A stretch of DNA of 64,000 nucleotides from Desulfofundulus kuznetsovii DSM 6115 (GTDB lineage Bacteria > Bacillota > Desulfotomaculia > Desulfotomaculales > Desulfovirgulaceae). Below, piece by piece: positions 4,962 to 28,995 of the stretch. The first letter of the stretch is position 1. Every line of letters begins with the position of its first letter. The DNA lies in assembly GCF_000214705.1 (NCBI RefSeq), contig NC_015573.1:570501-634500 (forward strand), given 5' to 3'. Under the pieces are notes generated by a model. That model was not told where the DNA came from. It saw only the letters and a list, made by a program, of their open reading frames with translations, and searched no databases. The position numbers and the translations under genes were made by a program.

Positions 4962-4964
4962 CGC

Positions 4965-6779: not shown

Positions 6780-7709
6780 ATGCAGGCTGAAATATTGAAT
6801 ACGGACGGCCATATAGTACAGGGTAGACTGGGAAGACATGAAACTTTCACTCCTAGATATGGGTGGTTGAAAAAAGGGTATGACGCCGTAATCCAGGATG
6901 GCAACGTTTTTAAAGCTTCTGATGCAATAGAGCGGCTTGGTGTAGGAAAGAACATGGTTAGTTCTATCCGGTTCTGGTGTCAAGCGTTCAAATTGATTGA
7001 GCCTGCTCACAATGGCTGCATGGTGCCGACCGAACTGGGGCGTAGACTTCTTGATGATAACGGTTGGGACCCTTTCCTGGAGGATGTGGCATCCTTATGG
7101 TTGCTGCACTGGCAGCTTTTTGTACCGCGTCTCGAGGCAGTTAGCTGGACGCTGGCCTTTAATAAATGCAACCTCTGGAGTTTTGACATCAAACAACTCA
7201 CCAAAGTGATATTCAGTGCCGCTCAGAAATATCCGAGCTTTAAAACAATATCCGAAAATTCTTTTGAAAGGGATGCTTCTTGCATCATCCGGATGTACGC
7301 CGACGTGCCGTTAGAAAAAGAATCTGAGATTGAATGCCCATTCACACAGCTTGGGATTATTCGCAAAGCAGAAGAGAAGAATTCAGTTTGCTTTGATACC
7401 ACGGAAAAGCAAAGCCTTCCGCCCCTGATATTTGCCGCTGCGTGTTTCTCTTACATAGATTCTTATGTATCGGCAAAACAAAGGACCATATCCCTTCACC
7501 GGTTGACCTACGATTTCAACTCTCCGGGTGTAGTCTTCAAAGTACCGGAAAGTGCGGTGGGATCCTATCTATATACAGCAGCAAGGGAATTGAATGGTAT
7601 TTCCTTGATCGAGACTACGGGTAGCCTGCAACTCTATTTCGATGGTGAACCTAAAGCGCTATATTGGGATGCGCTACAGAAATATTATGATGGAGCTGTA
7701 AGAAGATGA
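6780..7709 (+). CDS. DUF4007 protein, SspB-like (first copy)
   Basis: A 309-residue protein with the DUF4007 pattern near its N-terminus: FTPRYGWLKKGYDAV, then LGVGKNMVSSIRFWCQAFKLI, then PTELGRRLL and LWLLHWQLF. To my knowledge this family corresponds to SspB, the protein linked to DNA nicking in the single-strand phosphorothioation (Ssp) systems. That link is recalled, not checked. The start is ATG at 6780 behind GAAGGGATGGAG. The stop overlaps the next ATG (ATGA). An ATPase and a PAPS-reductase-like gene follow directly, matching the order B-C-D. Confidence 0.8.
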   Translation: MQAEILNTDGHIVQGRLGRHETFTPRYGWLKKGYDAVIQDGNVFKASDAIERLGVGKNMVSSIRFWCQAFKLIEPAHNGCMVPTELGRRLLDDNGWDPFLEDVASLWLLHWQLFVPRLEAVSWTLAFNKCNLWSFDIKQLTKVIFSAAQKYPSFKTISENSFERDASCIIRMYADVPLEKESEIECPFTQLGIIRKAEEKNSVCFDTTEKQSLPPLIFAAACFSYIDSYVSAKQRTISLHRLTYDFNSPGVVFKVPESAVGSYLYTAARELNGISLIETTGSLQLYFDGEPKALYWDALQKYYDGAVRR

Positions 7710-10700
7710 AACTATTGGATTTTATATTCCCGGATATGAATATCGTTCGTTCGGTTAATCTGGAACGAGATTATGAGCACATAGGCCTGATTGAGGATTA
7801 TCAAATTACTGCCAAGACTCTGGAGATTCTTGGTCGTTTTGTGGATGCTTTGCAGGGCGAAAGGGTTTCCGCATGGTCGTTGACGGGACCATATGGTATG
7901 GGCAAATCAGCTTTTGTCAATTACCTGCTCGCTGTTACCGGTCCATCAGGCAGCAGGAGGTCACAAATTGCTTTAGAAAAGCTAAAATGTGCTGATTCAA
8001 AACTATATAGAGAACTTTCGAGTAGTATGAGCAGGATGGTTGGAAAAGCGGGATTTTTTCAGGTTCCCGTGACAGCTGCTTACGAGCCGGTGAACGACAC
8101 TCTGGCACGTGGATTGCACAATGCGCTGGCTGCTTCCGAATTGCCCAATAAGGATGAACTTATCGCCAGATTGGAATCGCTCCGGGAGCAGAAAGCCATT
8201 GACTCCCAGAAGCTTTTCGCTGCATTCAAGGACACATATCATTTATCTAACAGACCATTGCTCGTAGTAGTAGACGAGTTCGGTAAAAATCTGGACTACA
8301 TGTCGCACTATCATGACCGGGGCGACATTTTCATCATGCAACAACTCGCAGAAGTGGATTGGGTATATCTGTGGGTGTGCCTCCATCAAGCTGATGAGTA
8401 CGCGTTCGGACTATCTACGGTTCAAAGGCAGGAATGGAGCAAGGTCCAGGGGCGTTTCGAGGATATCACCTTTGTAGAATCAACTGCTCAGATGCTCCGT
8501 TTAATGCGAAAGGTGCTTAAACAAAATTTACAGGAAGATCAAAAGGAACGCCTAAGAAAATGGGCAGAGGAAGCACGGCGGTTCGTTGAAGGAACTCACA
8601 TGGCAAATAAGCAGGATTTTGATGTAAACACCATTGCAAGCCTATACCCTATTCATCCCCTTACTGCCATCGCCCTGATCGAGCTATGCCGTCAATTTGC
8701 TCAAAACGATAGGACCCTGCTTTCCTTCATGTGTAGCAGACATATGCATGCATTACCCGCATACCTCGAACATACAGAAGTCAGCGGCAAAGGGAGATTG
8801 CCTGCGGTGGGTCTGGATTACCTTTATGATTATTTTTTTAACATTAGCACCACTGTGTACAGCAACCGTGCCGTGTCACAGAGGTGGGTTGAGATTCAGG
8901 ACATTATAGAAAACGCTGTTCACCTATCAGCACAGGATCAGGCTCTCTTAAAAAACATAGGCGTACTCAACCTTTTACCCGGCAACCTCGGGGTAAGAGC
9001 CAGTTTGGATACCATTTCCGCTATCATGGAATACGCCCATGGTTTGGATAGAAAGATGGTCAAAGAAACCGTCGAAAGTCTTGTTTATAGGGGCATCCTC
9101 CTGTTCAGGGAATATGCGGGGGAGTACCGGTTGTGGGAAGGCTCCGACTTTGACGTGTACGGGGCGCTCCGGGAAAGGAAAATGAAATTGTCCATCGGGT
9201 CACTTGATGCGCTTCTGCAGGAATACCTGCCGCTTTCCCCGGTTATTGCCTCCCGCCATGCTCATAAAACGGGAACCATCAGGCGTTTTGAACGGCGCTG
9301 GCTGGATGTGGAATTGCTTACAGGCGATCTAGCCCCGCAAAAGGGCTTCGATGGGCTCTTCCTGTATTGTTTCGGCACGCTTAAAGAACCGAGTTTTGTT
9401 CCGGAGGTGTGCCGTGATGGTCGGCCGCTGCTGGTGGCATACGTCCCTTCCCAGTCAACTCTTCATGAACTTGCTTTGGAGGTAGCCGCTGCTCGTTCAG
9501 TGCTCGAGGAAAGCCCCGAACTTGTTCATGACAGTGTGGCAAGAAAAGAAGTCAAGTTCCGGATCAAGGTAGCAGAACAGCAGTTTCGTGAGCACTTTGC
9601 CAGACTTTACTCGCCAGGCTCAGAGGACGTCCTGTGGTATTCAGAAGGAAGACGGATAGAAATACATAATGCCAGGGAACTGTCAGCCACGCTGTCTGAA
9701 CTGTGCGACCGGTATTATTGCAAATGCCCGCGTATAGGTAATGAGATGATCAGTTATGATCACCTATCCAGCGCTGCCGCACGGGCACGGCGTGAGCTGG
9801 TGGAAGCGATGGTTACCAGGGCTGGCGAAGAGCGGCTTGGGTTGCGGGGCTTTGGCCCCGAGGTAGCGGTGTACAGGTCGCTGCTCCTGGCGGAAGGACT
9901 GCATGTAAAAGATGAGGAGACCGGCTGCTGGCATTTTTCGCTTGAAGGGAATGATCCCCAGTTAAAATATCTTTGGAAACAGATAGACGAATGTATAAAC
10001 ACTGCCGGTGACCAGGGAATAAGCGTAGCCAATATCCTCAGTGTGCTGCGTGAACCGCCGTTTGGAATGAGGCAGGGTCCGGCCCCAATCTACATCTGTT
10101 TATACCTCCTTGTCAAATCCGATGAAATTGCAGTGTTTCAAGAGGGCACTTATCGGCCTTATTTGACTGCTTCCGAAATGGCTTTGATGCTCAAGCGGCC
10201 GGATTTATTCGTACTCAAGCGATTTGTTTCCAACAATGTGGAACGGGAAGTTTTTGATATATACAAAAACATATTGAATAAAGCTCAGATAGAGGGTAAT
10301 CCCGGACTACGTAATACCACCATGCTGGGTGTCGTAGGTCCGTTGGTCAAATTCGTGAATGAACTGCCTGCGTATGCAAGGAACACCAGGCAAATATCCC
10401 GCGAAGCCCAACAATTGCGCTTAGCCATTCAGAACTCTGTTGAACCGATACGGCTCTTGTTTGAAGAATTGCCCAGGGCAGTCGGAATTGATCTAAAAGC
10501 AAAAACCGGAAACGACAGCGCCTGGCGAGAGGAGCTGCAGGTCAAACTGCGTTCAGCACTTTACGAGCTGGGTCAAGCATATCACGCCCTTAATGCTAAA
10601 GTGCAGAAGACGATGCTGCAGGTCTTTGAGGGCGAGAACCTGCAAGAGTTGTACAAAAAACAACGGGAACGTACCAAGCCGCTATTAGATATTTGTGATG

Positions 10701-11107
10701 AACCCGAACTCAAATCCGTGCTTCAGGCCTTCGCAAGAGAATACCGGGATCCGGCTGAATGGGTAAAAGGAATCGCCGGTATTGTGATTAAAAAACATAT
10801 GGATTCCTGGAATGATCAGGATTTCACGCTGTTCGCTGCAAAACTACGGGATTACGCCGACCGTATCCGGCAACTTGAGACATTAGCTTCCCTAAATGGC
10901 TGCTATGTGAAGGAGAACACCAGGTTAATCAGCATCATGAGGCCTGGTGGCAAGATCAGGAGAGAGGTTGTTAATGTAATTTCCACTCAAGATGCCGAAG
11001 TCCAGGGTAAGGTTAGCGAGATCCTGGCTCTTCCAGAAGAAAAATCCAGGGCTATCCTGGTAGCTTTAGCGGAGAAAATATTTGCGGGTGATTCAAATGA
11101 CCACTAA
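7706..11107 (+). CDS. Large P-loop ATPase, SspC-like (first copy)
   Basis: An 1133-residue protein with an N-terminal ATPase. Walker A is GPYGMGKS (residues 61-68) and Walker B is LLVVVDEFGKNLD (D190, E191). The remaining 900 residues are mostly helical and match nothing I can name. The DEFG(K/R)xL(D/E) form of Walker B recurs in the second large ATPase at 24249, so the two are probably paralogues. By position it is the SspC component of the writer. It overlaps the DUF4007 gene by 4 bases and the SspD gene by about 11. BrxC/PglY ATPases of BREX are similar in size, but no BREX partner genes are present. Confidence 0.75.
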   Translation: MKLLDFIFPDMNIVRSVNLERDYEHIGLIEDYQITAKTLEILGRFVDALQGERVSAWSLTGPYGMGKSAFVNYLLAVTGPSGSRRSQIALEKLKCADSKLYRELSSSMSRMVGKAGFFQVPVTAAYEPVNDTLARGLHNALAASELPNKDELIARLESLREQKAIDSQKLFAAFKDTYHLSNRPLLVVVDEFGKNLDYMSHYHDRGDIFIMQQLAEVDWVYLWVCLHQADEYAFGLSTVQRQEWSKVQGRFEDITFVESTAQMLRLMRKVLKQNLQEDQKERLRKWAEEARRFVEGTHMANKQDFDVNTIASLYPIHPLTAIALIELCRQFAQNDRTLLSFMCSRHMHALPAYLEHTEVSGKGRLPAVGLDYLYDYFFNISTTVYSNRAVSQRWVEIQDIIENAVHLSAQDQALLKNIGVLNLLPGNLGVRASLDTISAIMEYAHGLDRKMVKETVESLVYRGILLFREYAGEYRLWEGSDFDVYGALRERKMKLSIGSLDALLQEYLPLSPVIASRHAHKTGTIRRFERRWLDVELLTGDLAPQKGFDGLFLYCFGTLKEPSFVPEVCRDGRPLLVAYVPSQSTLHELALEVAAARSVLEESPELVHDSVARKEVKFRIKVAEQQFREHFARLYSPGSEDVLWYSEGRRIEIHNARELSATLSELCDRYYCKCPRIGNEMISYDHLSSAAARARRELVEAMVTRAGEERLGLRGFGPEVAVYRSLLLAEGLHVKDEETGCWHFSLEGNDPQLKYLWKQIDECINTAGDQGISVANILSVLREPPFGMRQGPAPIYICLYLLVKSDEIAVFQEGTYRPYLTASEMALMLKRPDLFVLKRFVSNNVEREVFDIYKNILNKAQIEGNPGLRNTTMLGVVGPLVKFVNELPAYARNTRQISREAQQLRLAIQNSVEPIRLLFEELPRAVGIDLKAKTGNDSAWREELQVKLRSALYELGQAYHALNAKVQKTMLQVFEGENLQELYKKQRERTKPLLDICDEPELKSVLQAFAREYRDPAEWVKGIAGIVIKKHMDSWNDQDFTLFAAKLRDYADRIRQLETLASLNGCYVKENTRLISIMRPGGKIRREVVNVISTQDAEVQGKVSEILALPEEKSRAILVALAEKIFAGDSNDH

Positions 11108-11921
11108 CCCCAACCTTAACAAAGACAGAAAAGAACGTCACATCCTCGCCCTCTCAGGAGGCAAGGACAGCGCGGCACTGGCTGTTTACATGCGCGATAA
11201 ATATCCTGACCTGGATATAGAGTACGTTTTTACAGACAGCGGATGTGAGCTACCAGAGACGTACGAGTATTTGGATAGAATAAGGGCTGTTCTTAATATT
11301 GATATAACTGTTATTAAACCAGAAAAGAGCTGGGAAAATTACTGGGCATTGACCAAAGTTAAAAAGACAAAATATGGAACCTTTACATACTTGCCATCCC
11401 CAAAAAATAGATGGTGTACTGAAGTATTAAAACTTATACCGTATAATGAGTGGTTAATGAACAATTATTCTAATTATACGGTACATAGTTATGTTGGTTT
11501 ACGTGCTGATGAAAAGCGGGATCGCAAAGGGTTTAATTTAAGTAGATCTAATGTGATATCACATTACCCATTTGTCGAAGATGGTCTAGTTTATGAGGAT
11601 ATCAAAAATTTACTAATAAACTCCGGGTTGGGATTCCCCGGTTATTATGAATGGCGTAAACGTTCTGGCTGTTATTTCTGTTTTTATCAAACAAAACGTG
11701 AATGGTTAGGGTTATATGAGCATCATCCAGATCTTTTTATGAAAGCGAAAAACTATGAAACTGTCATTCCCGAAAAAGGCATCAAATATACATGGTGTGA
11801 TGATATGAGTTTGGAAGAACTCCTTAAAAAGAAAGATGAAATTATGGCACAGGAGTTCATTGAAGATAGTTCTGGCAAGACTATTTCAAAATTGTGCGAT
11901 GTGCTAGCTAATATCTGTTGA
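11097..11921 (+). CDS. PAPS-reductase-like sulfur transferase, SspD/DndC-like
   Basis: A 274-residue protein from ATG at 11097; an in-frame TTG at 11082 is less likely. The PP-loop is SGGKDS at residues 20-25. Cysteines lie at C50 (DSGCE), C107 (NRWCT), C192 and C195 (GCYFC); the last three could ligate a 4Fe-4S cluster as in DndC and PAPS reductases. By family it activates the DNA backbone with ATP and passes sulfur to it, forming phosphorothioate. The upstream B and C genes make an SspD assignment more likely than assimilatory sulfate reduction. From about residue 58 the base composition falls sharply (see the AT-rich patch). Confidence 0.82.
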   Translation: MTTNPNLNKDRKERHILALSGGKDSAALAVYMRDKYPDLDIEYVFTDSGCELPETYEYLDRIRAVLNIDITVIKPEKSWENYWALTKVKKTKYGTFTYLPSPKNRWCTEVLKLIPYNEWLMNNYSNYTVHSYVGLRADEKRDRKGFNLSRSNVISHYPFVEDGLVYEDIKNLLINSGLGFPGYYEWRKRSGCYFCFYQTKREWLGLYEHHPDLFMKAKNYETVIPEKGIKYTWCDDMSLEELLKKKDEIMAQEFIEDSSGKTISKLCDVLANIC

Positions 11922-12700
11922 GGGGGGAGGGTAGATATGTATTTAGAAGTTTTTTTGAATCAGTTAAAACTATTGTCGCGTGATTCTTCGTTTAAACCCC
12001 ATAAATATTTATTATTGTTGGCTGTTCTAGATCAAATTGACAATCAAGAACAACACGAAAATAGATTTTATTTTGACGATGATCTAAAAAATCGTTTTAC
12101 CAAGTATTTTGAAAAATATAAACGTGAAGGGGATCGTAACCGTCCTTATACACCCTTTTTTCACCTTAAGAGTTCGGGTTTTTGGCATCTTAAAGCAAAG
12201 CCCGGAAGGGAAGATTTTCTCAGAGAGTTATCAACGATCGGTAGTCCCCGTGACATCATCGATAATATTGATTACGCATATTTGAGCGAACCTGTTTATG
12301 AGTTATTCGTTAACAAAGATTCATCAGCTAAAATAAAGGCTCAAATATTGTCTATTTTAGAAAACCAGTTAAATCAAGCTGAAATATCTGTCGTTTCGGA
12401 AGAAACTGGGCAGTATATTGTAAATAGTATGAGTGAATCGTTATTTGATCATGAGGAAAAAGCAATTAATGTTATTAATAGCGCAATTAAATCAATCGGA
12501 AAAATGTTAAACAACGTCTATTTATATGATAATCAGTCCAATAACTATTATGAATATGACATAATTATGGTCACTCATTCAGGGATATATGTCGTTGAAC
12601 TTAAACACTGGTCAGGTTATATACGTATAGCACCGTATAACTGGGAGATCAATGGCACCCATTACAGGACCGATCCGCATAAAAACAACAGTTTCAAGTG
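11270..12700. other. AT-rich mosaic patch spanning sspD and the reader domain
   Basis: Hand counts of 60-base lines give about 50% GC at 11101-11220, 30-38% at 11281-11520, 20% at 12061-12120, 23% at 12421-12480, 30-33% at 12541-12720 and 62% at 12781-12840. The low-GC segment covers the C-terminal three quarters of SspD and the first 250 residues of the next protein. Both edges fall inside genes, so this looks like a recombined module. Confidence 0.65.
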
Positions 12701-15700
12701 TAAGGTATTAAAAGGTATTTACCAGCATCATTTCAGGACATATCCCGACGTATGGGTAGAGTCCGTAGTGGTACTCACGAATAATGAGGCCATAGTAGAA
12801 GGAGCCTCCGCGCCGGGGCTTGCTGCCGAGCGGGACATACACAACCCTACTTTTGCATCCATTTCTGACTTCATCACCTACCTGAAGAAAAAGGAATCGT
12901 CAACCAGTAGACCTCTACTTGATGACACGCAAATCGACGCTATCATTAATTACCTGAAGAGCCTTAATACGTCCAGGTCAAGTTTAAAATACTGCATTCC
13001 CGGCTATGAGACTCTCGAGTATATTTCTCAAAAGCCGGAGTGTATCGAACTGATAGCCCGGCCGATTGACGGGCGAGCGAAAGGGCTGAGTCGTTTCCGC
13101 GTTTTCCGAGTACCCAATCAGGCAGTACCGGAAGAGAAGGAACGGTTTATCAGGAAGGCCTGGAATACCCTGGATGCAGTATCCCGGATCGGTGACCATC
13201 CCCACATTCATAAGGTGTGGGTGATGAGGAACGAGGATGGTGACATCATCGAGGGGTCGGAATGGTCGGAAACAGGAACGCTGCGCGACCAGATCCGCCA
13301 GCAGAAAGGGGCTTTCCCGGTTGACACAACCTTGAGAATATGCCGCGGAATTGCCCTGGCCCTGAACAGGGCGCATCAGGCTGGTGTAATCCACCGTGCG
13401 GTCAAACCGGAAAACATACTCATGATGAACGACATTCCTAAATTAATGAATTTTGACCTGGCATATCAGATTGAAGAAGACCATGTTACTGTTATGCCGG
13501 ATGTATCAAAGATCAAGGACGATGGCTACATAGCGCCGGAAATTCTCGCAGGTCAGGATATTGATGAAGGAACCGATTTCTTCAGCCTGGGAGTTATTGC
13601 TTACGAAATGCTTACCGGGGTCAGGCCTTTTGCCAGTGTCAGAGCATTTATCGCACATGGGGGGCTATTGAATGAGCAGGCCCGGCAAAAGCTAACAGAA
13701 ACAGGGGCTCCTGATAAGGTCATAGAAGCCATCATGGGCATGGTCATTGCCGACCGGCTAAGACGATTAAAAGATGGCGAGAAGATTATTGCCGCGTTCA
13801 GTCTGGATACAGAGGGAAGCCGAAAAGGTACCGATCCGGTGGCCGTTAATCCAAGGCTGCAACCCGGCGAACAGTATGATGTTTATGAGATCCTTGAGCT
13901 GATTGGCGAGGGAGCGGAAGCACAGATTTACAGGGCGAAGACTATCCGCTCAGAAGAGGTGGTTTTAAAGCTTTTTAACAAGGAGATCCCGCGGGAAAGG
14001 ATTTTCAAAGAAGCCGAGATCACCAGTGCTGTAGATTCAACGTATGTGGTTCATTGCGATAATCGAATTGGGCACTGGAAAAATGACCGTTTCTTTCTCG
14101 TATTGGATTACATCGAGGGCGAATCCATGCGGAAGATGATTGACCGGAATGAAAGACCGGACCTCGAAACCTTCCGGACCGTTGCGCTGTGCTTAATGGA
14201 GGCGGTGGAAGCTTTTCACGAACATAAGGATAGGGATGGCACCCCAAGGCCTCTGCTCCACAGCGATATCAAACCGGATAATATTTTAATTACCAGGGAC
14301 CGGAAAGCGGTCCTGATAGACTGTGGGATCGCCGGCGAGCCCCGGGTTGATGTCTTCCAGGGTACTTTCGGCTATGTTCCTCCGGACAGCATATCCGGGA
14401 CAGATAGGCTCTTTTCCCAGGATGGCGATCTATTCGCGCTGGGTGTAACTCTATGGGAGTGGCTCTTTGGGACGAAGCCTTACAATAACCCCGCTATCGG
14501 TGACAATCCGCAGATCCCCGAGACTCTTGGCGATGATGTGCAGGAATACCTTCCCTGGCTAATGAAAGCTGTAGCTACAGAAGCAAGCAAGCGATTTACC
14601 ACAATAAAAGAAATGCGGAAATCTTTCATAGAGCTCAAAAAAATAAAGGAGGAATCAGCCGAGCTAGTAGAAAAGGAATGTGCTACGGGACTAGACAGCG
14701 CTCAGAAGCTGGAAATGTCTCTGACGAACAAAACTGTTGGAGTTGAGCAAACAGAAGAGGTTACGGAGCAGTTGCTGCCTGTGAATCCCTTTGTGACCTA
14801 CCTCAATTCGCTTTCCAATGCATCTGCTTTTAATGAAAATGCTACCGCCGAATCCCAGCTGGGTAACCCTTTCTTTGCCAGGATATTCGTGGCTAATCCG
14901 CTTGCCGATTTTATTTATGAAAAGCTCATCAGCGAACACCGCAACGTTATCCTCACCGGTAATGCCGGTGATGGTAAGACAACCATCGCTGCAGAGATCT
15001 TCAAGAAAGTGACAGGTGAGTTCCGCTTGCTGCAGCCGAGAGAAGATATCGCTGCAAGTAACCTCGTCATCATTAAAGACATGAGCGAGTTGCCTGAAGA
15101 TAATCGTATCGAAGTTTTGATGGAGGCTGTGGGGAGCCAAAAAAATAGTTATCTCATTGTATCCAATACAGGTACGCTGCTGGAGAGTTTCAGGAAACTG
15201 AAAGTAAATGGAAGAAAAACCGATGAAAGCGAACTGTTAAAGGCCCTTGAAGCAGATACACCCCAATCTGTGCTCGATGGGCGCTTTCTGATCGTGAACA
15301 TTGGTAGGATGGACAGCATTAAAACCGCTTGTGATGTTTTTAAACGCATGCTGGATCCAGCAAACTGGCTCCCAAATAAAAACTGTCAATACAGGGAATA
15401 TTGTCCAATCTTCAGAAATGTAAAACTTCTCCAGGAGAATCTGGACGTAGTCTGTGAGCGGGTAATGCTTCTCTACAGGCGCCTGTACGAATATAATGTC
15501 CGCCTTACCATGCGGCAGATGACCGGCCACCTGGCGTACGCCATTACCGCCGGACGAAGCTGCGCGGAAATTGGTGCCATGTCCCTTATTGCTCTGCAGG
15601 ATTGTCTTTGCGGCTCCCTTTTCTTTAACCGCTTTTTCGGGGATGATGGCAATAATGTTGCAGCAGAGGCCATGCAACTGCTGCCGGTGCGGCGGATCCG

Positions 15701-16490
15701 GGAGGCCGAGTTCGGGGTGGTGCTCGCATCCTCATTTGAAAGAAAAGTCTGGATGAGAGAAGGGAAAGCACTACCCCTAACGGGAGAAGCCTTGCCGATA
15801 TACCAGAAACTGCTAGACGAACTAAATCGAGACGGCCCTGCGGCCCGCCGGCAGTTGCGGCGTCTTGTCTATTTTTTCGGTTCGCTGGACGATGAGGCCG
15901 GTAAACGTTATATCTCCATCTTTTTACGTTCACCCATGCTAATTAAATTTCTGGAATTTTCCCAGGGCGCCAGTAGAATACCGCCGCCGTTAGAACGCAA
16001 CTACCGTCTCCGGATATTGCAGGTATTACAGGAATATTTCATCGGTGTGCGCTTGCCGGAAGAAATCTGGCAGGAGAAGGACCTGTATATTACCCTCAAA
16101 CGGCACAGAGGCGGTGCCAGAACGCAAATGGTACTGGCAGATTTTCGGGTAGATGATTTTGAATTGACCGTCAAGCCAAGGTACCAGGCAGGTGAAAAAA
16201 GCAGCGGGGTGTTCTGCCTGCGCTTCAAACAAGGCGATGTGGAGATGGAACTCGACCTGCCGTTTCTTGATTATGTGGCCCGGAGATACGAAGGCGATGT
16301 GGCGGAAGAGCTTTCCGCCTGTTACGCCGATCGCCTGGAGCGGTTCAAGGTGGAACTAATGCATCAATATAATGAGAATCGTAAACAGCATGATCATCAA
16401 CATTTGCAGTTGTTACGGGTAGGCCCTGACCGCAGGTTTCAGGTGATGAAAGTGCTTGTTTCCGACGCTTCTTTGGAGGTGCTTTTATGA
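11937..16490 (+). CDS. Five-domain defence protein: sulfur-binding-like, NERD, pseudokinase, kinase, DptF-like ATPase
   Basis: A 1517-residue protein. Residues 1-90 carry PHKYLLLLAVLD and RPYTPFFHLKSSGFWHL, a pattern like the N-terminal sulfur-binding domains of phosphorothioate-dependent restriction enzymes. Residues about 150-270 form a NERD nuclease domain (D208, E221, K223 in VELKHW). Residues about 370-600 form a protein kinase fold with HRAVKPEN in place of HRD (A488) and no DFG, so it is a pseudokinase. Residues about 650-900 form a second kinase with GEGAEAQIY, K678, HSDIKPDN (D777) and DCG (D795), probably active. From about 960 a DptF-like ATPase follows with GNAGDGKT (1008-1015). 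The start is ATG behind GAGGGGGGAGGG. Its end overlaps the next gene by 4 bases. Sensing of modified DNA coupled to kinase and nuclease output is inference. Confidence 0.75.
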   Translation: MYLEVFLNQLKLLSRDSSFKPHKYLLLLAVLDQIDNQEQHENRFYFDDDLKNRFTKYFEKYKREGDRNRPYTPFFHLKSSGFWHLKAKPGREDFLRELSTIGSPRDIIDNIDYAYLSEPVYELFVNKDSSAKIKAQILSILENQLNQAEISVVSEETGQYIVNSMSESLFDHEEKAINVINSAIKSIGKMLNNVYLYDNQSNNYYEYDIIMVTHSGIYVVELKHWSGYIRIAPYNWEINGTHYRTDPHKNNSFKCKVLKGIYQHHFRTYPDVWVESVVVLTNNEAIVEGASAPGLAAERDIHNPTFASISDFITYLKKKESSTSRPLLDDTQIDAIINYLKSLNTSRSSLKYCIPGYETLEYISQKPECIELIARPIDGRAKGLSRFRVFRVPNQAVPEEKERFIRKAWNTLDAVSRIGDHPHIHKVWVMRNEDGDIIEGSEWSETGTLRDQIRQQKGAFPVDTTLRICRGIALALNRAHQAGVIHRAVKPENILMMNDIPKLMNFDLAYQIEEDHVTVMPDVSKIKDDGYIAPEILAGQDIDEGTDFFSLGVIAYEMLTGVRPFASVRAFIAHGGLLNEQARQKLTETGAPDKVIEAIMGMVIADRLRRLKDGEKIIAAFSLDTEGSRKGTDPVAVNPRLQPGEQYDVYEILELIGEGAEAQIYRAKTIRSEEVVLKLFNKEIPRERIFKEAEITSAVDSTYVVHCDNRIGHWKNDRFFLVLDYIEGESMRKMIDRNERPDLETFRTVALCLMEAVEAFHEHKDRDGTPRPLLHSDIKPDNILITRDRKAVLIDCGIAGEPRVDVFQGTFGYVPPDSISGTDRLFSQDGDLFALGVTLWEWLFGTKPYNNPAIGDNPQIPETLGDDVQEYLPWLMKAVATEASKRFTTIKEMRKSFIELKKIKEESAELVEKECATGLDSAQKLEMSLTNKTVGVEQTEEVTEQLLPVNPFVTYLNSLSNASAFNENATAESQLGNPFFARIFVANPLADFIYEKLISEHRNVILTGNAGDGKTTIAAEIFKKVTGEFRLLQPREDIAASNLVIIKDMSELPEDNRIEVLMEAVGSQKNSYLIVSNTGTLLESFRKLKVNGRKTDESELLKALEADTPQSVLDGRFLIVNIGRMDSIKTACDVFKRMLDPANWLPNKNCQYREYCPIFRNVKLLQENLDVVCERVMLLYRRLYEYNVRLTMRQMTGHLAYAITAGRSCAEIGAMSLIALQDCLCGSLFFNRFFGDDGNNVAAEAMQLLPVRRIREAEFGVVLASSFERKVWMREGKALPLTGEALPIYQKLLDELNRDGPAARRQLRRLVYFFGSLDDEAGKRYISIFLRSPMLIKFLEFSQGASRIPPPLERNYRLRILQVLQEYFIGVRLPEEIWQEKDLYITLKRHRGGARTQMVLADFRVDDFELTVKPRYQAGEKSSGVFCLRFKQGDVEMELDLPFLDYVARRYEGDVAEELSACYADRLERFKVELMHQYNENRKQHDHQHLQLLRVGPDRRFQVMKVLVSDASLEVLL

Positions 16491-18103
16491 GTTTACCGTT
16501 GCCCTTCCCTCGTCTTGACGTTTCCGATGATTATAACCCGGCCATCAGGCTGTTTGGCAAGCGCTTTATCAAAGAACAAACCGTTGTGGAATACCTGGCC
16601 GAGTTCCTGGCCGTCGTCTTTTCGGATAAGTGGATCGGTAATGGTGAGGTAATTAAGTCGCCCCTCCCATCCCTTGAAGAATTGAAAAGGTGGTCTGTCT
16701 CCTCCAAGACCAAACTGCAGTACAAGCCGCCCATTAAACTAAACCTGAAACTGTTTGCATTTCTGAGCATTTCCCGGGTTGATTCAAGACACGACGTGCA
16801 TAAGAAACATTACGAAGATTTGTGCAAAAAATTAAAAAGCAACTTAAAAGCAAGCAATGGAAATGCACAAGAAGTAATAGACTGGATAGAAGAGCTTTTG
16901 CGCGGTTTTCAAGGGGCCGGCTTTAATAGGGCCTGGTGCGCCCAGACTTTCTATCCTGTTTCTGCGAGTCTCCTGACACAAGAAACAATATGGAATGAGA
17001 CTGTTGTAAAGGGAGACCCCATTAATGAGTGGATGGATAGTGTAAGAAAATTTCATAAGTATTATAGTGTTTCGAAACATCGCTTTCTAGCTAGAGGTGG
17101 CGAGTTATTATACCTCCAGCTGTGCAATGTTTTCGCAACCGAAAGGGCAGAGGTTACAAAATTTGCCGAATCGATGGGATTTTCTACCGATGAAGCCGAC
17201 CTGAAAAAGCTACACGGGTCATTGCAGGAAGGGTTGCTGAAGCTGAGCGGCCAATATACCGGCCCCTTTGACCGGTTAGTTGATTACATAGAGTTGCTCG
17301 ATAAAAATACGCACGAATTGACCAACATGGAAGCTGAATGCTTGACCTGTGAGTGGTGCCCTGAGGAAAGCTGGCGGGAGGCTTATCTGTTTGCTGTGGA
17401 AATCAACCGCCTGCTGACTGCGGTATTGGAGCCGGTTGAACGCCTGGAGCTGATGATGACGGGATGCGCTCTGCAGGTTCTGCGCAGTTTGTGCGCCCAG
17501 AGCGTAAGGTATGCTGGAGGTTCTGCCGTAGCAGCAAATGGAAGCGCGCTGGGGTATGCCTGGATATTCTCGCCGCCGGGTTTGCCTTCGCGCCAGCAGC
17601 GCCTGGCTTCCCAGCGGAACCTGCAGGTCATTCAGGGACTTATCCAGAAAGCCCTGCGCTATGATGAATTGGTGAAAAACGCTGCAGGAGCAGAACCCAG
17701 GATCAAAGTAGATAAGCTTTATAGAGAAGCGGACAACAAATACGGGCACAAGTTGTTCCTTTCCCTGGGTAAGAAACTGGGAATTATTGTACCACAGAGG
17801 GGACGCGGGGCCAGGTTAATCATGACCGACAACATCCTGCGATATATGGTGTTGGTTCTCTTGAAACCCGGTGAGCGCTGCACTTATGAGGAATTTCTGC
17901 AGCGACTTTACCGCCATTATGGTATTGCTATTGAAGGGGAGGAACTCACAGAGGCCGTGATCTGGAGCGGATTGCCTGCCAACAGCTCCATCCAGCCGCT
18001 AAAGGGCTCCTGGTTGGCCAGGATGCTCCGGGCAGGCGGCTTTTTGACCGAGCTTTCTGACGCGTGTTCCATTGTGCACAATACTTTTGGCAAAAATAAA
18101 TAA
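16487..18103 (+). CDS. Unrecognised defence protein at the DptG position
   Basis: A 538-residue protein that I cannot assign by motif. It lies between the DptF-like and DptH-like genes, the position DptG has in Dnd restriction modules. The N-terminus reads PLPFPRLDVSDDYNPAIRLF. The C-terminal 100 residues (LIMTDNILRYMVLVLLKPGERCTYEEFLQRLYRHYG) look like a winged-helix fold. No Walker, nuclease or transmembrane motif is visible. The start overlaps the previous stop (ATGA). An AT-rich stretch occurs near 16790-17100. A DptG role is suggested by context only. Confidence 0.55.
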   Translation: MSLPLPFPRLDVSDDYNPAIRLFGKRFIKEQTVVEYLAEFLAVVFSDKWIGNGEVIKSPLPSLEELKRWSVSSKTKLQYKPPIKLNLKLFAFLSISRVDSRHDVHKKHYEDLCKKLKSNLKASNGNAQEVIDWIEELLRGFQGAGFNRAWCAQTFYPVSASLLTQETIWNETVVKGDPINEWMDSVRKFHKYYSVSKHRFLARGGELLYLQLCNVFATERAEVTKFAESMGFSTDEADLKKLHGSLQEGLLKLSGQYTGPFDRLVDYIELLDKNTHELTNMEAECLTCEWCPEESWREAYLFAVEINRLLTAVLEPVERLELMMTGCALQVLRSLCAQSVRYAGGSAVAANGSALGYAWIFSPPGLPSRQQRLASQRNLQVIQGLIQKALRYDELVKNAAGAEPRIKVDKLYREADNKYGHKLFLSLGKKLGIIVPQRGRGARLIMTDNILRYMVLVLLKPGERCTYEEFLQRLYRHYGIAIEGEELTEAVIWSGLPANSSIQPLKGSWLARMLRAGGFLTELSDACSIVHNTFGKNK

Positions 18104-18126
18104 TTTGGAACAGGGGTAGGCACATT

Positions 18127-21100: not shown

Positions 21101-23397
21101 GGGTAGTGTGTATAGATCCTGCCGTGGATGAGCAACTGCTCCGGCGGGTAGAGACAGATGGCACCAGGGCCCGGGAGATCATCGGTTTCGGCACTGGTGT
21201 CGGACCACATGGGGAGAACAACTATACAATTTCTACCGAGCAATTTGCCATGGCAGACATTACAAAGAAGATCAGTTCACAGATATCTGCACTGTTGGGA
21301 CCCTTGGAACTGGACCTCTCCAAGCGTATCGCTGAAAGCCTGGTTAGAGAGGCGGCGCACATTGCTGGTCTTTCAGTAGTAAAAGCAACCGGTCCATCCA
21401 GGTATGTGCGGGAGTTTATTGCCAATGCGATGGTCAGGAAGCTGCTGCGCAGGGATAACAGCGCCTTTTGTGACGAAATCATCTCACTCGATGCTTTCCG
21501 GCACTGGTTCGATGATGCCGCGGACGGTAAACGCCCTGACATTTTGAGACTGCAGGCCAATATCGTGGACGGGTATTTTGAGATAAAGGCTCAGATTATC
21601 GAATGTAAACTGGCCCAGCAGTCAGAAGGGTATCTGGAAAAAGCTCGCCAGCAGATTGAGAGCGGCTTGAAGCAACTGGCTACCTGTTTCCGTCCCCGGG
21701 AAACGGAGAATCCCGTAGGGATTGATGATAAACCCGATCAACGTTACTGGTGGATGCAGCTTCACCGCTTGATAGCCAGCAAAGGCGAAACAAACCGGTC
21801 CAGGTACAAGGAAACTCTCCTCGCTCTGGAGCGTTTGAGCGAAGGGTACTTTAACATCACATGGCAGGCAGCGGCAGTTGCGTTTTGGACCGACCTGGAC
21901 AGCGATTCCATGCAGTGTAACCCTCAATGGAATTTTAGTTTGGACGGACAGAATATGGTCATATTCGTGGCTACGGCGGGAAGGAATTTTATTAAAAAGG
22001 CATGCCTTGAAGATACGGCAGCGGATATTTTCTGCAGTGAGTCCAGAATAAGTTATAGTTTCAGCAAGAGCGAAAGGAAACCTGGTATTGATGGTGGTGA
22101 TGACGGCGTACCTGAAGAACCCGAATCCGGCCGGGAACAGCCAGAGCAGGTAACAAAACCTTCTGCTGGAGAAGGAACATCAGTTGAAGATATGATGGGT
22201 GCCGGCACTACCGAGGAGGAGCCAATGGGGGACGACAGTTCTGTTGTTCTTGTGAAAAGGCGTATCCCAGAGCGAATTCTCCTGGGCAGCGGTACCGCCG
22301 GCGGCAGGGATGTCTGCTGGGAATTCGGCCATCCAGACCTGCCCAACAGGCATATTCTTCTGTTCGGGGCTTCCGGCACGGGGAAGACCTACACCATTCA
22401 GGCCCTGCTGTGTGAACTCGGCAAAGCAGGGCAAAACAGCCTGATCGTTGATTATACAAATGGATTCACCAACAAACAATTGGAACCAATAGTCATTGAA
22501 AAGTTAAATCCAAAGCAACATGTAATACGCAGGGAGCCGTTAGCGATCAATCCGTTCCGCAGGCAGTACGATTTCATTGACGATATGCAACTGGAAGAGG
22601 ACCCGGCAACAACTGCTCAAAGGGTCAGCGGGGTATTCGCGGAGGTTTATCAATTGGGTGATCAACAGAAGTCGGCCCTTTATAATGCCATTCGGGATGG
22701 TGTAGCCCGGGAAGGGAACAGATTTAATCTGCAAAGGTTAATGGATAAATTGGATGATATCCGCAATGCAGGGGGGCCTACCGCCAACTCTGCTGCTACC
22801 GTGATCAGCAAAATTCAACCGTTCGTGGACATGAACCCATTTGGAGAGGAAGACGTTGAAAGTTGGGAAAAACTGTTTACAGATCCAGGCTCAAGGTGCC
22901 ACATCATCCAGTTGGCCGGTTTCATGAAAGATACGGCCAGGCTGATCACGGAATTTTCCCTCATCGATCTTTATTGGTACTACCGGGCAAGGGGAAATAA
23001 GGATAATCCAAAGGTCATCGTGCTCGATGAGATACAGAACCTGGATCACCGCCTGGATAGCCCTTTGGGGCAGTTCCTCACCGAAGGGCGCAAGTTTGGC
23101 ATTTCTTTGATACTCGCTACCCAGACCTTGAGCAACCTTGACAAAGATCAGAGAGACAGGCTCTTCCAGGCTAGCCACAAACTTTTCTTCAAGCCGGCTG
23201 ATACGGAAGTCAGATCATTCGCCCAGATACTGGCGGATGCTACCAATGGGCGAATCGACGAGTGGGTTGAGCGTTTGTCTTCGCTGAAGCGGGGTGAATG
23301 TTACTCGCTCGGGTATGCTCTAAACGAATCAACCGGTAAATTAGAAGTCAGCAAATGGTTTAAGATTCGTATCAAGCCGTTGGAACAAAGGTTTTAG
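18127..23397 (+). CDS. DptH-like protein with PD-(D/E)xK-like motif and C-terminal HerA/FtsK ATPase
   Basis: A 1756-residue protein. Its first 1100 residues match nothing I know. Near 1138-1161 the segment IVDGYFEIKAQIIECKLAQ resembles a PD-(D/E)xK nuclease core (D1148, E1159, K1161). A Glu/Pro/Gly-rich linker at about 1325-1370 leads to a HerA/FtsK-type ATPase with Walker A GASGTGKT (1414-1421), Walker B VIVLDEIQN (D1634, E1635) and sensor ILATQTLSN. Large size and a C-terminal HerA ATPase fit DptH of Dnd restriction. The start is ATG at 18127 behind AGGGGTAGG; an alternative ATG is at 18136. The nuclease motif needs structural confirmation. Confidence 0.7.
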   Translation: MRYMSNTIVDYILRETSRNSGTLRFVLPSYPSDLLLAIGCELEERFSRGLDLRVSFKYGIAYRLGKEWQNGTDTDRANFAAICKKGWYNADDNLTNLRNTVKNPDDDCLVILLAGYEHIDDQASLQDFFHLDQQAVWELCLQRSFYDWVHACLKDYVNPDGSEQDFKNIADLFKALYDYGLADVLEVSRYLEKQSFTGVMSGSDAYRLILSDLSYFKLPCMIGLTGRYATRRSFSRYITPAQEFFNYSMFLDASAREKAKKKIEKFRARFGDEQLESDTLGPFASLDELLDALKDYIENRSEAARAQLQTADFIYIYDKILGYREIRGQIEHDPKPRKLSGLPPEVFLRALWITLGDFKKEEKARSVLAAESLRSITLRSTLFKHDFDAGDEGDDKGRAETFLCHVLGGIDGFLEDQLRLKLGGEYNPVTVDFMSCLCPGEKNDTLAYNKTTTAEPSLKFEVIISPHEGEPYRREFLWTLPQNHQSRLLTDLYRWALEEYERSGNALPAFAVPYMTEIFMARDEEEVNRLLGSALRSGKCSMADLLSAEGIDNEDEVKPLLVELSRCYQLFLKEFKTSGFFSALDKRYDALRKAYCAAYERYLEKSGESALGPLLMKAFMIVSDSDLAQTNWVWNEYLQCAVVTPLHPALLEMLRHQHAYLCESFCVYAKRGLEESGDRMFTEKRWDRVSDLSRIQWPIFGTLKDLNLVLDTNVRSYGYIHLVGECRESSSSISSRLLLEYDNTEDEEIADTELFRETRDSQLIKQVLLDYRELHTYADDGISIGAYCGREIQPVIAGIDAYLAAILAERGERVYALHLIIFSDSGDDSAIMRWVNAWKDRWQEAELSHSKQHYSNCRISIAYRVVSRDDNFGQFMKLLQGTDLDVIFFTNFIESGASRFELLGEDYYIQGDYRKFPVLEKVCCRVTGGGRDKQRERVLSNQRFRLGALHAEVMAHIKNGHSDAVKKHAVISLSDFQPWTGVIDAAHEHSAWVVCIDPAVDEQLLRRVETDGTRAREIIGFGTGVGPHGENNYTISTEQFAMADITKKISSQISALLGPLELDLSKRIAESLVREAAHIAGLSVVKATGPSRYVREFIANAMVRKLLRRDNSAFCDEIISLDAFRHWFDDAADGKRPDILRLQANIVDGYFEIKAQIIECKLAQQSEGYLEKARQQIESGLKQLATCFRPRETENPVGIDDKPDQRYWWMQLHRLIASKGETNRSRYKETLLALERLSEGYFNITWQAAAVAFWTDLDSDSMQCNPQWNFSLDGQNMVIFVATAGRNFIKKACLEDTAADIFCSESRISYSFSKSERKPGIDGGDDGVPEEPESGREQPEQVTKPSAGEGTSVEDMMGAGTTEEEPMGDDSSVVLVKRRIPERILLGSGTAGGRDVCWEFGHPDLPNRHILLFGASGTGKTYTIQALLCELGKAGQNSLIVDYTNGFTNKQLEPIVIEKLNPKQHVIRREPLAINPFRRQYDFIDDMQLEEDPATTAQRVSGVFAEVYQLGDQQKSALYNAIRDGVAREGNRFNLQRLMDKLDDIRNAGGPTANSAATVISKIQPFVDMNPFGEEDVESWEKLFTDPGSRCHIIQLAGFMKDTARLITEFSLIDLYWYYRARGNKDNPKVIVLDEIQNLDHRLDSPLGQFLTEGRKFGISLILATQTLSNLDKDQRDRLFQASHKLFFKPADTEVRSFAQILADATNGRIDEWVERLSSLKRGECYSLGYALNESTGKLEVSKWFKIRIKPLEQRF

Positions 23398-23412
23398 GAG
23401 GTACCGTTTGAA

Positions 23413-24234: not shown

Positions 24235-24248
24235 CAGGGGGGCCATAG

Positions 24249-27200: not shown

Positions 27201-28553
27201 TTAGTTGGGAAGGTCGATTTTCGAAACAGGGCAATGGAATTAAATGAGCGCATTCCTGTACCGCAACAGCTCTATTACAAATATAAGCATTTAAATGATC
27301 AAGCAAATGATGCCTTGGTGAAGCTGAACGCATGGCAACATGATATCGATGAGGCTTTGGAGAAAGTATTAAATAAGGGAATAGAAAAAGATAATTTTAA
27401 TTGGTTATCCTGGGGGGCTGCAGAATTAGCTGACATAATTGATAGGATGCTTAGAGAAGGAAAGCAGTGGACGAAGGAACAGGTTGAAACAGTTGAAAAA
27501 CATTTAGCGTATGCCCGCCTGCAAACGCAGCAACGTTTCTCGAAGTGGTTGATCCGGCAGACTGTTGTGGATATCGAGCAGTTGAGTAAGTTCAAGCACC
27601 ATATGCTAAAAAATATTGGAAGCAATTTAGAAAAGCTTGGCCTTGATGAAGAAAAAAAGCAATTAGAGGCACACGTAAATAAAGTCGAAAAGCATGTTCA
27701 TGATATCGCGGAGGTAAAAAGAACAGCGTCCGACATTGAGAATATGGTTCAGAATAATAAAATCACCAGCTCTACGCCAGTTTCAGTATTGAACGCGTGG
27801 CTGGAACAGGTCAAGGAATTCGCGGGGCGCTTGGAAAAAGCAAAGAAGAGAACGGATATTGCCCAGGGTGATGTGGAGGCTGCGGCTAGAAAACTGGTAG
27901 ACTTCCAACAGGCCTGCAAAGAACAGCTTGTGCAGTACCAGGAGAGAACGGCTAATGTTTATAATATCAAGGATATTACTTCCTTGAGCGATATAGCTTA
28001 CTGGCGAGGTGAAGTCGCTTCGTTGATATTGATCTATGAAGGGCAAGAAAAGGATGTTGAGGATTTAAAACTGGTTCAGAAGCAACTCGATCTGGTAGAA
28101 AGGCATTATCGACAGCTTGATGACGAGAGCCTGAATGAGGAAGAGTTCGAAGCAGCCTGCAAACGATGTATAGAAGAAAACAATAACGAATTTTCTGATG
28201 ATGCTCCGCCGCTGGATAATGAGTTAGTTTACAATGGACTCATAAAGACAATTAGAGCCAACAGGGAGCGGGCAGCATTGGAGTGGATGCAGCACAATGT
28301 TCCTGACCCGCAAGCAATAGCCGGATTTGACGCTTCGATGGCTATGGAATACAAAACCCGCTTGCAAAAAATGCCCCGGGTGCTGTCCGCCCAACAAGTC
28401 AAAATTGTACGCGAGGCACTCGCAGCCTGTGAAAGGCGCCTTGACGAACTTGAAGTAGAAGGCCTGCTGGCAAAATTTCAGGCACTGTCTGAGGAAAACA
28501 AGAAAATGTTTTTGAGGAAGTTATCAAACTACATCAAATCCTTGTGGCCTTGA
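24249..28553 (+). CDS. Large P-loop ATPase with coiled coils, SspC-like (second copy)
   Basis: A 1434-residue protein with Walker A GYGTGKSH (residues 89-96) and Walker B LIIFDEFGRYLE (D276, E277). The Walker B form matches the first ATPase (LVVVDEFGKNLD), and both follow a DUF4007 gene, so they are likely paralogues. The C-terminal 400 residues are rich in Glu, Lys and Gln with heptad-like spacing, indicating long coiled coils (for example EKVLNKGIEKDNF and KVEKHVHDIAEVKRT). The start is ATG behind AGGGGGGCC. It is the last gene of the 21.8-kb operon. Confidence 0.65.
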   Translation: MKLADIVSFRKDLLFNGAVQISWFENDRLQAEKAAAHYVFHGPDYHGVAEEDLDGSSYKLVDTANFTLDILERINGKIADEPFALAIAGYGTGKSHLAVTLALLLSNPKSGVAGKIIDNITMADAAIGDRVRKILQKSNQPFLVVAINGMQDFDLCDEIIRQVLLVLNQNGLDTTVLENLRPRFKSAINFTESFFIPLKDDFEKYFGESCSVQEIVERLKCQDDETFRKVSAIYEQKMGSPIHAVGQESLHDFIRIAKETYCGPDKPFAGILIIFDEFGRYLEFAVQKPHIAGPGALQQLFECVQANGDKVFLLCFIQNELKAYISRVAQERREDMSRYVTRYDAVRKVRLSINLETLIANLLEKKNPEELERQVAGIDEPPASIQLYMKRWFPDIKNHALWMNINRFERVIYKGCWPLHPLSTWVLYKLTSIGKSLQQRSALSLLAEVYTAFQDGEFAPGRTIRPVDLCNEAMINEFLASERYGQQGATAHAYESVLQKYQYELSTNEKTVLKAVLVSAKIGVKVESKEEYLKVLAIFSGIGTDAVKDAVRSLEYEYAVLEWNELLHQYEITGDAVPRRAFIAQLEAKVAEIDSHKRANIFGQNYKKWTQLEIYNTDFGTQNNITTREWNFKVYFTNVSMLEGQIDYALRTWWDARGVDEEKGQLIYCYVGPESNIDAVKEIALKMMKSSMEKNDRDWGTGAPVAVILLHDADGTFGHKIAEYWVLQEQMSEEESQKYANFILDRKNSLVQEMQNQFSELERARHIVFATDKQIARSRTKNMLTQLFDVIYPKRIPFPFDGFHTARGNAAKDCQVFTKELFLGNLDRDWISARSVQQRNRAYEVLDKSWGVISDDGSIRMKPSNNAVREIIELLESQLGGTEGFETQKPMNMGEAMRLLCAPPYGCNIASAGMILALFIGRRKNELNLLKNNQAVKFENWLQDAIPGNFFDLSVLEVTDVVRVSKDSLSEWENLLDEWDLETTLVGKVDFRNRAMELNERIPVPQQLYYKYKHLNDQANDALVKLNAWQHDIDEALEKVLNKGIEKDNFNWLSWGAAELADIIDRMLREGKQWTKEQVETVEKHLAYARLQTQQRFSKWLIRQTVVDIEQLSKFKHHMLKNIGSNLEKLGLDEEKKQLEAHVNKVEKHVHDIAEVKRTASDIENMVQNNKITSSTPVSVLNAWLEQVKEFAGRLEKAKKRTDIAQGDVEAAARKLVDFQQACKEQLVQYQERTANVYNIKDITSLSDIAYWRGEVASLILIYEGQEKDVEDLKLVQKQLDLVERHYRQLDDESLNEEEFEAACKRCIEENNNEFSDDAPPLDNELVYNGLIKTIRANRERAALEWMQHNVPDPQAIAGFDASMAMEYKTRLQKMPRVLSAQQVKIVREALAACERRLDELEVEGLLAKFQALSEENKKMFLRKLSNYIKSLWP

Positions 28554-28912: not shown

Positions 28913-28995
28913 TTTACGAAGAAATCTTAGCTACGAGCTAAAGCAACCATCAGATTGATATGCTAATAACAACTTTAGAGAACGGGGTAAGGCAA

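Follow-up and report, generated by a model that had tools for sequence, protein, structure and literature searches.

A predicted phosphorothioation operon of Desulfofundulus kuznetsovii with a probable matched and exchangeable set of writer, reader and effector specificities

The window analyzed in this study is a stretch of 64,000 nucleotides from the genome of Desulfofundulus kuznetsovii DSM 6115 (positions 570501-634500 of NC_015573.1, a single contig of 3.60 Mb). At 6780-28553 it harbors an operon of eight genes (Table 1), which encode a predicted Ssp-type writer of phosphorothioate (PT) marks (SspB, SspC, SspD), a multi-domain F protein opening with a sulfur-binding domain (SBD), the SspG- and SspH-like subunits G and H, and a second SspB/SspC-like pair (SspB2, SspC2). 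We consider it probable that this operon is a PT restriction-modification system in which the specificities of writer, reader and effector are matched and can be exchanged as a set. With slightly less assurance, we presume that a loop of SspD, the SBD and a small patch of SspG form a matched code of at least three states, which is swapped between near-identical machines in a manner resembling HsdS switching.

DNA recognition by Ssp proteins is assigned to SspB in a review (PMC12707154; citations here and below refer to portions of the respective papers). Two operons of one genus whose differences are almost confined to SspD, the SBD and a patch of SspG provide a natural swap experiment on how PT systems choose and recognize their motif. 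If our reading is correct, PT restriction gains specificities by cassette exchange, as classical restriction enzymes do; the PT sequence would be chosen in SspD, not in SspB alone, loci with an SspD of the acidic or uncharged class would be expected to use new motifs, and PT motifs might be foretold from protein sequence by means of the residue code.

Exchange between near-identical operons

A congeneric counterpart of the operon is locus L046 of Desulfofundulus thermosubterraneus, whose DNA is identical over 7.5 kb to that of G400, a genome of the window's genus. The DNA of the window and of L046 is 98.2-98.4% identical over 6516-11308 and 12495-22093, the last position lying approximately at the end of the L046 contig. 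The block between these two segments, about 1.2 kb in size, has been exchanged. This cassette comprises SspD from about codon 76 to its end and residues 1 to about 186 of gene 4, i.e. the SBD up to the NERD domain, and its GC content is 34.0% in both alleles versus 47-49% in the surrounding DNA. The L046 cassette is closest to that of genome G070 (74% for the C-terminal part of SspD, 56% for the SBD), and the remaining operon is closest to G070 as well. Hence, the window holds the newer allele.

The amino acid differences between the two operons amount to 3/304 in SspB, 19/1132 in SspC, 12/544 in the kinase part, 4/567 in the F core and 18/1320 in H. SspG contains a patch, located about 4.5 kb from the cassette, in which 18 of 48 residues differ from L046, versus 4 of 487 elsewhere in this protein. 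Among the four locus pairs with F cores at least 89% identical, the SBDs are unlike in three (35, 22 and 47%), while the fourth pair, L076/L077, is 99% alike throughout the available sequence. A search for further congeneric pairs in Bacillota yielded a sole new one, G442 (locus L144).

Residues that follow the class of the sulfur-binding domain

Wider relatives were obtained by a scan of genome contigs and represent the best 80 of 342 related stretches. Prior to counting, the rows L048, L059 and L064, which stem from the same contigs as G135, G243 and G073, were dropped, as was L077, a near copy of L076 whose gapped row is likewise left out of the SspD counts. According to the motif at the cavity proline, the SBDs fall into three classes: class I (RPxxPFFHL-like), class II (E/DxPFYxL-like) and class III (xYPFGRL-like), the last seen in gammaproteobacterial loci. 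These labels were set in this analysis from the SBD motif and agree with earlier identity clusters; labeling by the lid residue alone, which mixed deep groups, was dropped. The effector tree requires at least 12 changes of SBD class (trees are quick searches with one substitution matrix and leave out L049 and L079).

Single residues that separate classes I and II were sought in SspB, SspC, SspD, the F core, G, H and SspB2. The top positions are SspD 95, 118 and 107 (numbered by the open reading frame (ORF); 4 is to be subtracted for numbering from the TTG start) and SspG 198, which is residue 199 of the full protein. The best single-residue association reaches 0.94 bits in SspD and 0.68 bits in SspG; the corresponding values for the F core, SspB2, H, SspC and SspB are 0.21-0.31 bits. 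In a somewhat larger set of 34 rows, the SspD signal peaks at residues 81-120 (0.71 bits) and amounts to 0.11-0.37 bits from residue 201 to the end. The residue following the RWCT motif of SspD differs in charge between the classes: it is acidic in all 21 loci of class I, basic in all 13 of class II and uncharged in all eight of class III, and it switches with the SBD class in all eight independent pairs (p 0.008). Similarly, 20 of 22 class I loci have R199 in SspG, compared with none of 13 class II loci; this residue follows the SBD class in nine of ten independent pairs and runs opposite to it in none (p 0.004). Locus L144, which lies outside the discovery set, fits the residue pattern (one locus).

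Given the F distance, the distance of the SspD C-terminal part shows a small partial association with the SBD class (0.196, p 0.006); the values for the SspD N-terminal part, SspB, SspC, H and the kinase are lower and lack significance (0.03-0.07, p 0.11-0.31).

Several points weigh against a matched set of this kind. Covariation of the whole SspD C-terminal part with the SBD distance was rejected as a general rule (Spearman 0.08; partial 0.028, p 0.29), and the covariation of SspD and SBD holds for the loop region and at the class level only. In the pair L080/L083, most of SspD has not been replaced, although the diagnostic SspD residues differ along with the SBD. SspD and SspG exceed all of 300 label shuffles (maximum 0.65 bits, median 0.36), but such shuffles ignore relatedness, and the residue scan left out gene 8, the NERD domain and the kinase. 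Furthermore, SspD adjoins the SBD, so that part of the co-change could be due to linkage. Linkage alone does not explain the SspD signal, however, because the end of SspD that adjoins the SBD gene shows little of it.

The class-tracking residues of SspD lie around the motif G-x-LPSPxx-RWCT. In DndC, the loop proposed to determine the modified sequence, GYPAPTRSFRW, precedes the Fe-S cysteine and by prediction reaches into the major groove of DNA; three of its residues are associated with the PT motif, and modification was abolished when these were altered (PMC12193691). That work concerns Dnd, not Ssp proteins, and the alignment of the SspD and DndC loops was made in this analysis. SBDs, in turn, show some sequence preference when reading PT (PMC7470945). 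Since the DndC loop goes with the motif and SBDs have such preferences, writer loop and reader would have to match, and we infer that the matched property is a DNA sequence. One position of the SBD corresponds to Y164 of ScoMcrA, whose side chain contacts bases and contributes to motif recognition in that protein (PMC6224610). At this position the window has Thr, and L046 has Tyr; Tyr or Phe occurs in 0 of 23 class I and 9 of 16 class II SBDs, and Tyr in 8 of 9 class III SBDs.

A rather unlikely alternative is that the co-changing residues of SspD, SBD and SspG constitute a surface of protein-protein compatibility, and that the DNA motif remains unchanged by the exchange. F and G probably belong to the same complex, the SspG signal is confined to one small patch, and the distances of this patch and of the SBD covary (partial 0.284, p 0.002), all of which is compatible with such a surface. 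However, the same three-state pattern is displayed by SspD, which is a part of the writer, and the signal surrounds the very loop whose DndC counterpart is predicted to enter the major groove. The base-contacting Y164 position also differs between the classes, though not cleanly.

The predicted reader and the five-gene effector

Gene 4 (1517 amino acids, aa) encodes a single chain of five parts, i.e. SBD, NERD nuclease, pseudokinase, kinase and an SspF-like P-loop core. The first-pass annotation of this DNA had named neither the SBD and NERD domain nor the nature of genes 7 and 8 as a second SspB/SspC-like pair, and it had not noted the exchangeable set of SspD, SBD and SspG parts either. A structure model of residues 1-150 (model confidence, pLDDT, 86) has the SBD fold: its best Foldseek match is 8h0l (E 2.6e-12), followed by SprMcrA SBDs and, among lower matches, by the ScoMcrA SBD bound to PT-DNA. 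The sulfur-cavity residues described for ScoMcrA (His, Arg/Lys and Pro; PMC6224610) correspond to H22, K23 and P73. Across the aligned SBDs, the His-Lys pair is found in 45 of 48 rows with letters at this place and the Pro in 48 of 50. The N-terminal domain of gene 4 is, judged by sequence and model, a predicted PT reader.

As a separate observation, the F core of L114 (Methyloprofundus) is 97% identical to that of L103 and its SBD 47%; Tyr and Ala replace the cavity His and Pro in the alignment, and this SBD is possibly a decayed reader.

The E-x-K pattern of the NERD domain is kept in 28 of 30 such regions. In the pseudokinase the HRD aspartate is replaced (HRAVKPEN); the following Ser/Thr kinase has the motifs HSDIKPDN (HRD-type) and IDCG (DFG-type), and the pattern H-x-D-x-K-x-x-N recurs in 26 of 30 kinase parts. 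The Walker A lysine of the F core is present in 67 of 67 relatives. For genome G178, the SBD is joined straight to the F core, without NERD domain and kinases, and G135 is without a fused SBD; the front parts of the chain are therefore optional modules. The models found no SBD in 12 F-bearing loci (L068, L069, L070, L078, L086, L092, L102, L104, L105, L108, L123 and G135), which also weakens the case for a matched set: the reader is not obligatory, or it was missed. No SBD gene was found elsewhere in the examined stretches of SBD-less loci, with L047 being ambiguous and L054 ending at a contig end.

An SBD beside a writer might also suggest that PT is a trigger and not a protection: the SBD would sense PT and then activate the kinase, the NERD nuclease or H. 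We regard this as unlikely. It is true that McrA-type SBDs direct cutting of PT DNA (PMC6224610) and that SspE is stimulated by PT (PMC8092258). However, SspFGH and DndFGH are reported to attack PT-less DNA and to harm PT-less cells (PMC8092258), and a PT-triggered cutter with its own writer encoded next to it would turn against the host.

According to its motifs, the H subunit (gene 6) combines a putative nuclease, with an ECK motif near residue 1160, and a C-terminal HerA/FtsK translocase. ECK is kept in 54 of 54 relatives and the Walker A lysine in 47 of 47; gene 6 also matches DptH of PDB entry 7es4 (E 2e-4). The two genes downstream of H resemble the first two genes of the operon. Compared with SspB crystal structures, the model of gene 7 reaches VIA Z scores of 19.9 (6juf) and 19.6 (6lb9); the next family, BrxA, follows at 9.1, and rows scoring under BrxA were treated as background. 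Its DUF4007 match is weak (E 3.9e-6, just under the cut-off). The motif R-x-G-W, noted here for writer SspB and unpublished as a criterion, occurs in 32 of 38 gene 1 proteins and in one of 50 gene 7 proteins, so that we call gene 7 SspB-fold rather than SspB. Relatives of gene 8 keep the Walker A lysine (47/47) and the DE of Walker B (46/46). Pfam, PADLOC and NCBIfam matches included no dedicated model for SspB2 or SspC2.

Counts for genes 7 and 8 and for writer linkage leave out the window and the loci with G handles. Where the sequence extends 1.2 kb or more beyond H, 42 of 44 loci have gene 7 (absent from L098 and L109); where it extends 2.6 kb, 37 of 39 have gene 8 (absent from L098 and from L093, whose available stretch stops at gene 7). 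When F, G, H, SspB2, SspC2 and the kinase part are compared by their pairwise distances, the correlations are 0.84-0.92; hence, we assign genes 7 and 8 to the effector, in which they may act in DNA recognition. F, G, H, SspB2 and SspC2 represent a widespread five-gene effector. A strong F core occurs in 65 loci after removal of duplicates; 57 of these span 17 named phyla (one locus without phylum omitted; many are metagenome-assembled genomes), and at least 29 contain the kinase cassette (some genes are cut by contig ends).

Some loci depart from this arrangement. Gene 7 was not seen in the 2.6-2.8 kb after H in L098 and L109; ATPase genes follow there instead, which seem BrxD-like by reading of the sequence. 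L076 carries two extra genes between H and gene 7 (15052-16846), namely an SMC/AAA-like ATPase, so named by reading of the sequence, and a 224-aa protein.

It seems very improbable that the five-gene effector is a stand-alone defense merely traveling with SspBCD. Such autonomy is the published opinion on DndFGH (PMC10853773), which speaks against our reading, as does the fact that 5 of the 39 loci with at least 4.5 kb upstream contain no SspC and SspD in the available upstream stretch. All five fall within the 12 loci without an SBD match. The correlation of writer and effector distances is just 0.38-0.57, and 0.27-0.29 with the kinase part; SspB and SspC distances correlate at 0.75. On the other hand, SspC and SspD are adjacent in 34 of the 39 loci, and the specificity residues of writer and effector switch together.

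Under the preferred reading, a PT restriction-modification system with a matched specificity set, a desulfurase encoded outside the operon would supply sulfur to SspD, and SspB, SspC and SspD would attach PT to a single strand of a short motif, the choice of which would depend, at least in part, on the SspD loop preceding RWCT. The F protein would read the PT mark through its SBD, aided by the SspG patch, and F, G and H would load on DNA together with their own SspB2-SspC2 pair, possibly the effector's own DNA-recognizing ring; this proposal draws on the similar pairs described below for Thermomicrobium roseum and for other HerA operons. DNA lacking the expected PT would be cut by the H subunit while the HerA motor pulls it, a step adopted from the published work on SspFGH (PMC8092258); the NERD nuclease and the kinase may be optional added effectors. 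SspD loop, SBD and SspG patch would be exchanged as a set, like type I specificity subunits, because they must match.

Gene order, genomic setting and related systems

Table 1. Features of the operon in coordinates of the window
Feature	Position	Strand	Basis
Gene 1, SspB (DUF4007), 309 aa	6780..7709	+	PF13182 E 6.8e-90; PADLOC SspB 348 bits
Gene 2, SspC, writer ATPase, 1133 aa	7706..11107	+	PADLOC SspC 1261 bits over 15-1107
Gene 3, SspD, PAPS-reductase-like sulfur transferase, 279 aa	11082..11921	+	PF01507 E 4e-12; PADLOC SspD 296 bits
SspD loop and flanks through post-RWCT residue, ORF 95-118	11352..11423	+	aligned-column scan of seven proteins
Exchanged cassette	11308..12495	+	41-60% DNA identity to L046 in inner 150-base steps
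Gene 4 domain 1, SBD, residues 1-150	11937..12386	+	phmmer PDB 8h0l SBDHga1 E 1.6e-27
Gene 4 domain 2, NERD (PD-(D/E)xK) nuclease, ELK motif	12450..12779	+	PF08378 E 1.7e-14, residues 172-281
Gene 4 domain 3, pseudokinase, residues ~400-620	13134..13796	+	Pfam PK_Tyr_Ser-Thr 407-579; alignment
Gene 4 domain 4, Ser/Thr kinase, residues ~650-915	13884..14681	+	PF00069 E 1.2e-55; alignment
Gene 4 domain 5, SspF-like P-loop NTPase core, residues 950-1517	14784..16487	+	PADLOC SspF E 4e-35, first 287 residues
Gene 5, SspG-like, 538 aa	16487..18103	+	PADLOC SspG E 2e-22 over 370-534
SspG patch, residues ~173-220, incl. R199 (codon 17081-17083)	17003..17146	+	tracks SBD class; differs from L046
Gene 6, SspH/DndH-like, 1756 aa	18127..23397	+	PADLOC SspH E 1e-20 (middle), DndH E 9e-59 (C-terminal HerA part)
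Gene 7, SspB2, SspB-fold, 273 aa	23413..24234	+	model pLDDT 92; VIA Z to SspB structures
Gene 8, SspC2, SspC-like ATPase, 1434 aa	24249..28553	+	PADLOC SspC E 6e-19

All eight ORFs are open and tightly packed, with overlaps of 4 bases (genes 1/2), 26 (genes 2/3) and 4 (genes 4/5) and gaps of 15 bases (genes 3/4), 23 (genes 5/6), 15 (genes 6/7) and 14 (genes 7/8); these coordinates agree with the first-pass annotation, which had described eight genes of one strand that overlap or lie within 25 bases of each other. SspD opens with TTG, and an ATG lies close behind at 11100. The first three genes had been placed in the order sspB-C-D, and near-full-length profile matches, including the PAPS-reductase family, bear this out. 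Gene 1 is presumably the DNA-recognition and nicking subunit of the writer, a role we adopt from the literature. Aminotran_5 is a family that includes desulfurases; three strong matches to it are located elsewhere in the genome, and none of the operon's own genes encodes a cysteine desulfurase. In the relatives L074, L086, L078, L082, L065 and L058, a probable cysteine desulfurase gene, by reading of the sequence, stands between SspD and F.

Orthologs of gene 4 are found in 8 of 398 genomes of the phylum, the window's own counted. The same eight genomes carry strong orthologs of gene 8 (one cut by a contig end), and a ninth, G214, contains a gene 8 fragment alone at a contig end. A search for the same eight-gene order, as earlier proposed, recovered it in G070, G274, G370 and G178. 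Considering this joint occurrence and the order kept in four genomes, the arrangement reflects more than chance. Viral carriage was rejected, since two scans of viral contigs revealed no relative of the operon; among plasmids, only distant partial matches to gene 8 were found, and none to the gene 7 homolog of L100.

The combination of an Ssp writer, an F-G-H set and kinases in one operon, as had been described, is confirmed by the profile matches. Genes 4-6 had also been assigned to a Dnd restriction module, of which the F-G-H set stands, but its type is not clearly Dnd: F, G and H follow each other in order with distant, partial-length PADLOC matches to SspF, SspG and SspH, which are nearer. 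Dnd-type labeling was rejected, given that no dnd_assoc match in NCBIfam appeared at E<=0.01 where the first-pass annotation had looked to these profiles, and that PADLOC DndH covers just the HerA part of gene 6. The F core of the window has no PADLOC DndF match at E<=0.01; the F protein of the relative L074 has one (E 0.002). Among the eight genes, to which the search for Dnd genes was confined, the writer is SspBCD and not DndBCDE.

A writer-plus-FGH hybrid with kinases had been put forward as new. This cannot be upheld for the hybrid in itself, because SspBCD-SspFGH (2021; PMC8092258) and DndF with NERD domain and kinases (2024; PMC10853773) are already published. As far as our searches reach, i.e. 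within open literature with few subscription journals and no preprints, the new features are the swap of a 1.2-kb block together with the SspG patch, an F protein opening with an SBD, and a second SspB/SspC-like pair after H.

The closest known system is SspABCD-SspFGH of Vibrio anguillarum FF-93 (PMC8092258), which likewise consists of an SspBCD writer with F, G and H; the operon differs from it by the SBD and the NERD-kinase cassette on F and by the SspB/SspC-like pair after H. The resemblance is distant: F of the relative L100 shares 25-30% identity with plasmid SspF genes, and the alignments span a quarter to a third of the L100 protein. Six plasmid loci that we labeled SspFGH in this analysis (L126-L130 and L143) contain no second SspB/SspC-like pair in the 3-6 kb after H. 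In the plasmid Ssp operons of L143 (7420-11993) and L142 (12850-17237), a sensor histidine kinase and an adjoining hypothetical gene were seen in or beside the writer.

Multi-domain DndF (PMC10853773) resembles gene 4 in that F is preceded by a NERD domain, an inactive and an active kinase, with a winged helix-turn-helix (wHTH) in DndF, and H of DndFGH possesses a nuclease and HerA/FtsK, as in the operon (PMC10853773). In contrast to DndFGH, the operon has no dnd_assoc match and is coupled to SspBCD instead of DndBCDE. Other operons in that paper combine an Orc/Cdc6 ATPase and a DndG/SspB-like wHTH protein beside HerA, close to genes 7 and 8; the portion of PMC10853773 considered here describes no F-G-H set with an SspB/SspC-like pair behind it. 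SBD-HNH type IV enzymes (ScoMcrA, SprMcrA) and SBDHga share the sulfur-binding fold and the cavity residues with gene 4; ScoMcrA-type enzymes cut PT DNA by means of HNH, whereas the SBD of gene 4 is fused to an SspF-type core beside a writer.

MAD6 of MADS and PglW of BREX type 2 show the same succession of NERD domain, pseudokinase and kinase as gene 4. Membership in MADS or BREX was nevertheless rejected: the NCBIfam matches of gene 4 are below threshold (MAD6 351 bits versus a cut-off of 460; PglW 158 of 990), no methylase or PglZ match exists on the eight proteins, and neither PglZ nor BrxL was matched on these genes or the SIR2-HerA pair that follows them. A BREX type 4-like locus of Thermomicrobium roseum (L140) is similar to the operon in that SspBCD precedes a second DUF4007/ATPase pair, which is related to genes 7 and 8 (57 and 116 bits with our own profiles); its effectors are PglZ and BrxL, not F-G-H. 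On the T. roseum megaplasmid (9696-25259 of L140), SspBCD is followed by the second DUF4007 gene and a small gene accompanying it, an ATPase of 1400 aa, PglZ, BrxL and a gene for a cysteine desulfurase; type III CRISPR genes adjoin.

Downstream of the operon, at 28960-32740 on the same strand, lie two genes, encoding a 527-aa SIR2-like protein and a HerA helicase of 737 aa, which are predicted to be a separate SIR2-HerA type defense pair. The region from about 6000 to 35000 of the window has a GC content of 39-51%, compared with 49-64% further out, is flanked by tRNA-His/Gln (4885-5039) and tRNA-Lys/Leu (34312-34479), and includes a mutator transposase fragment at 32825-33424. By its GC content, tRNA borders and transposase fragment, it looks like a defense island.

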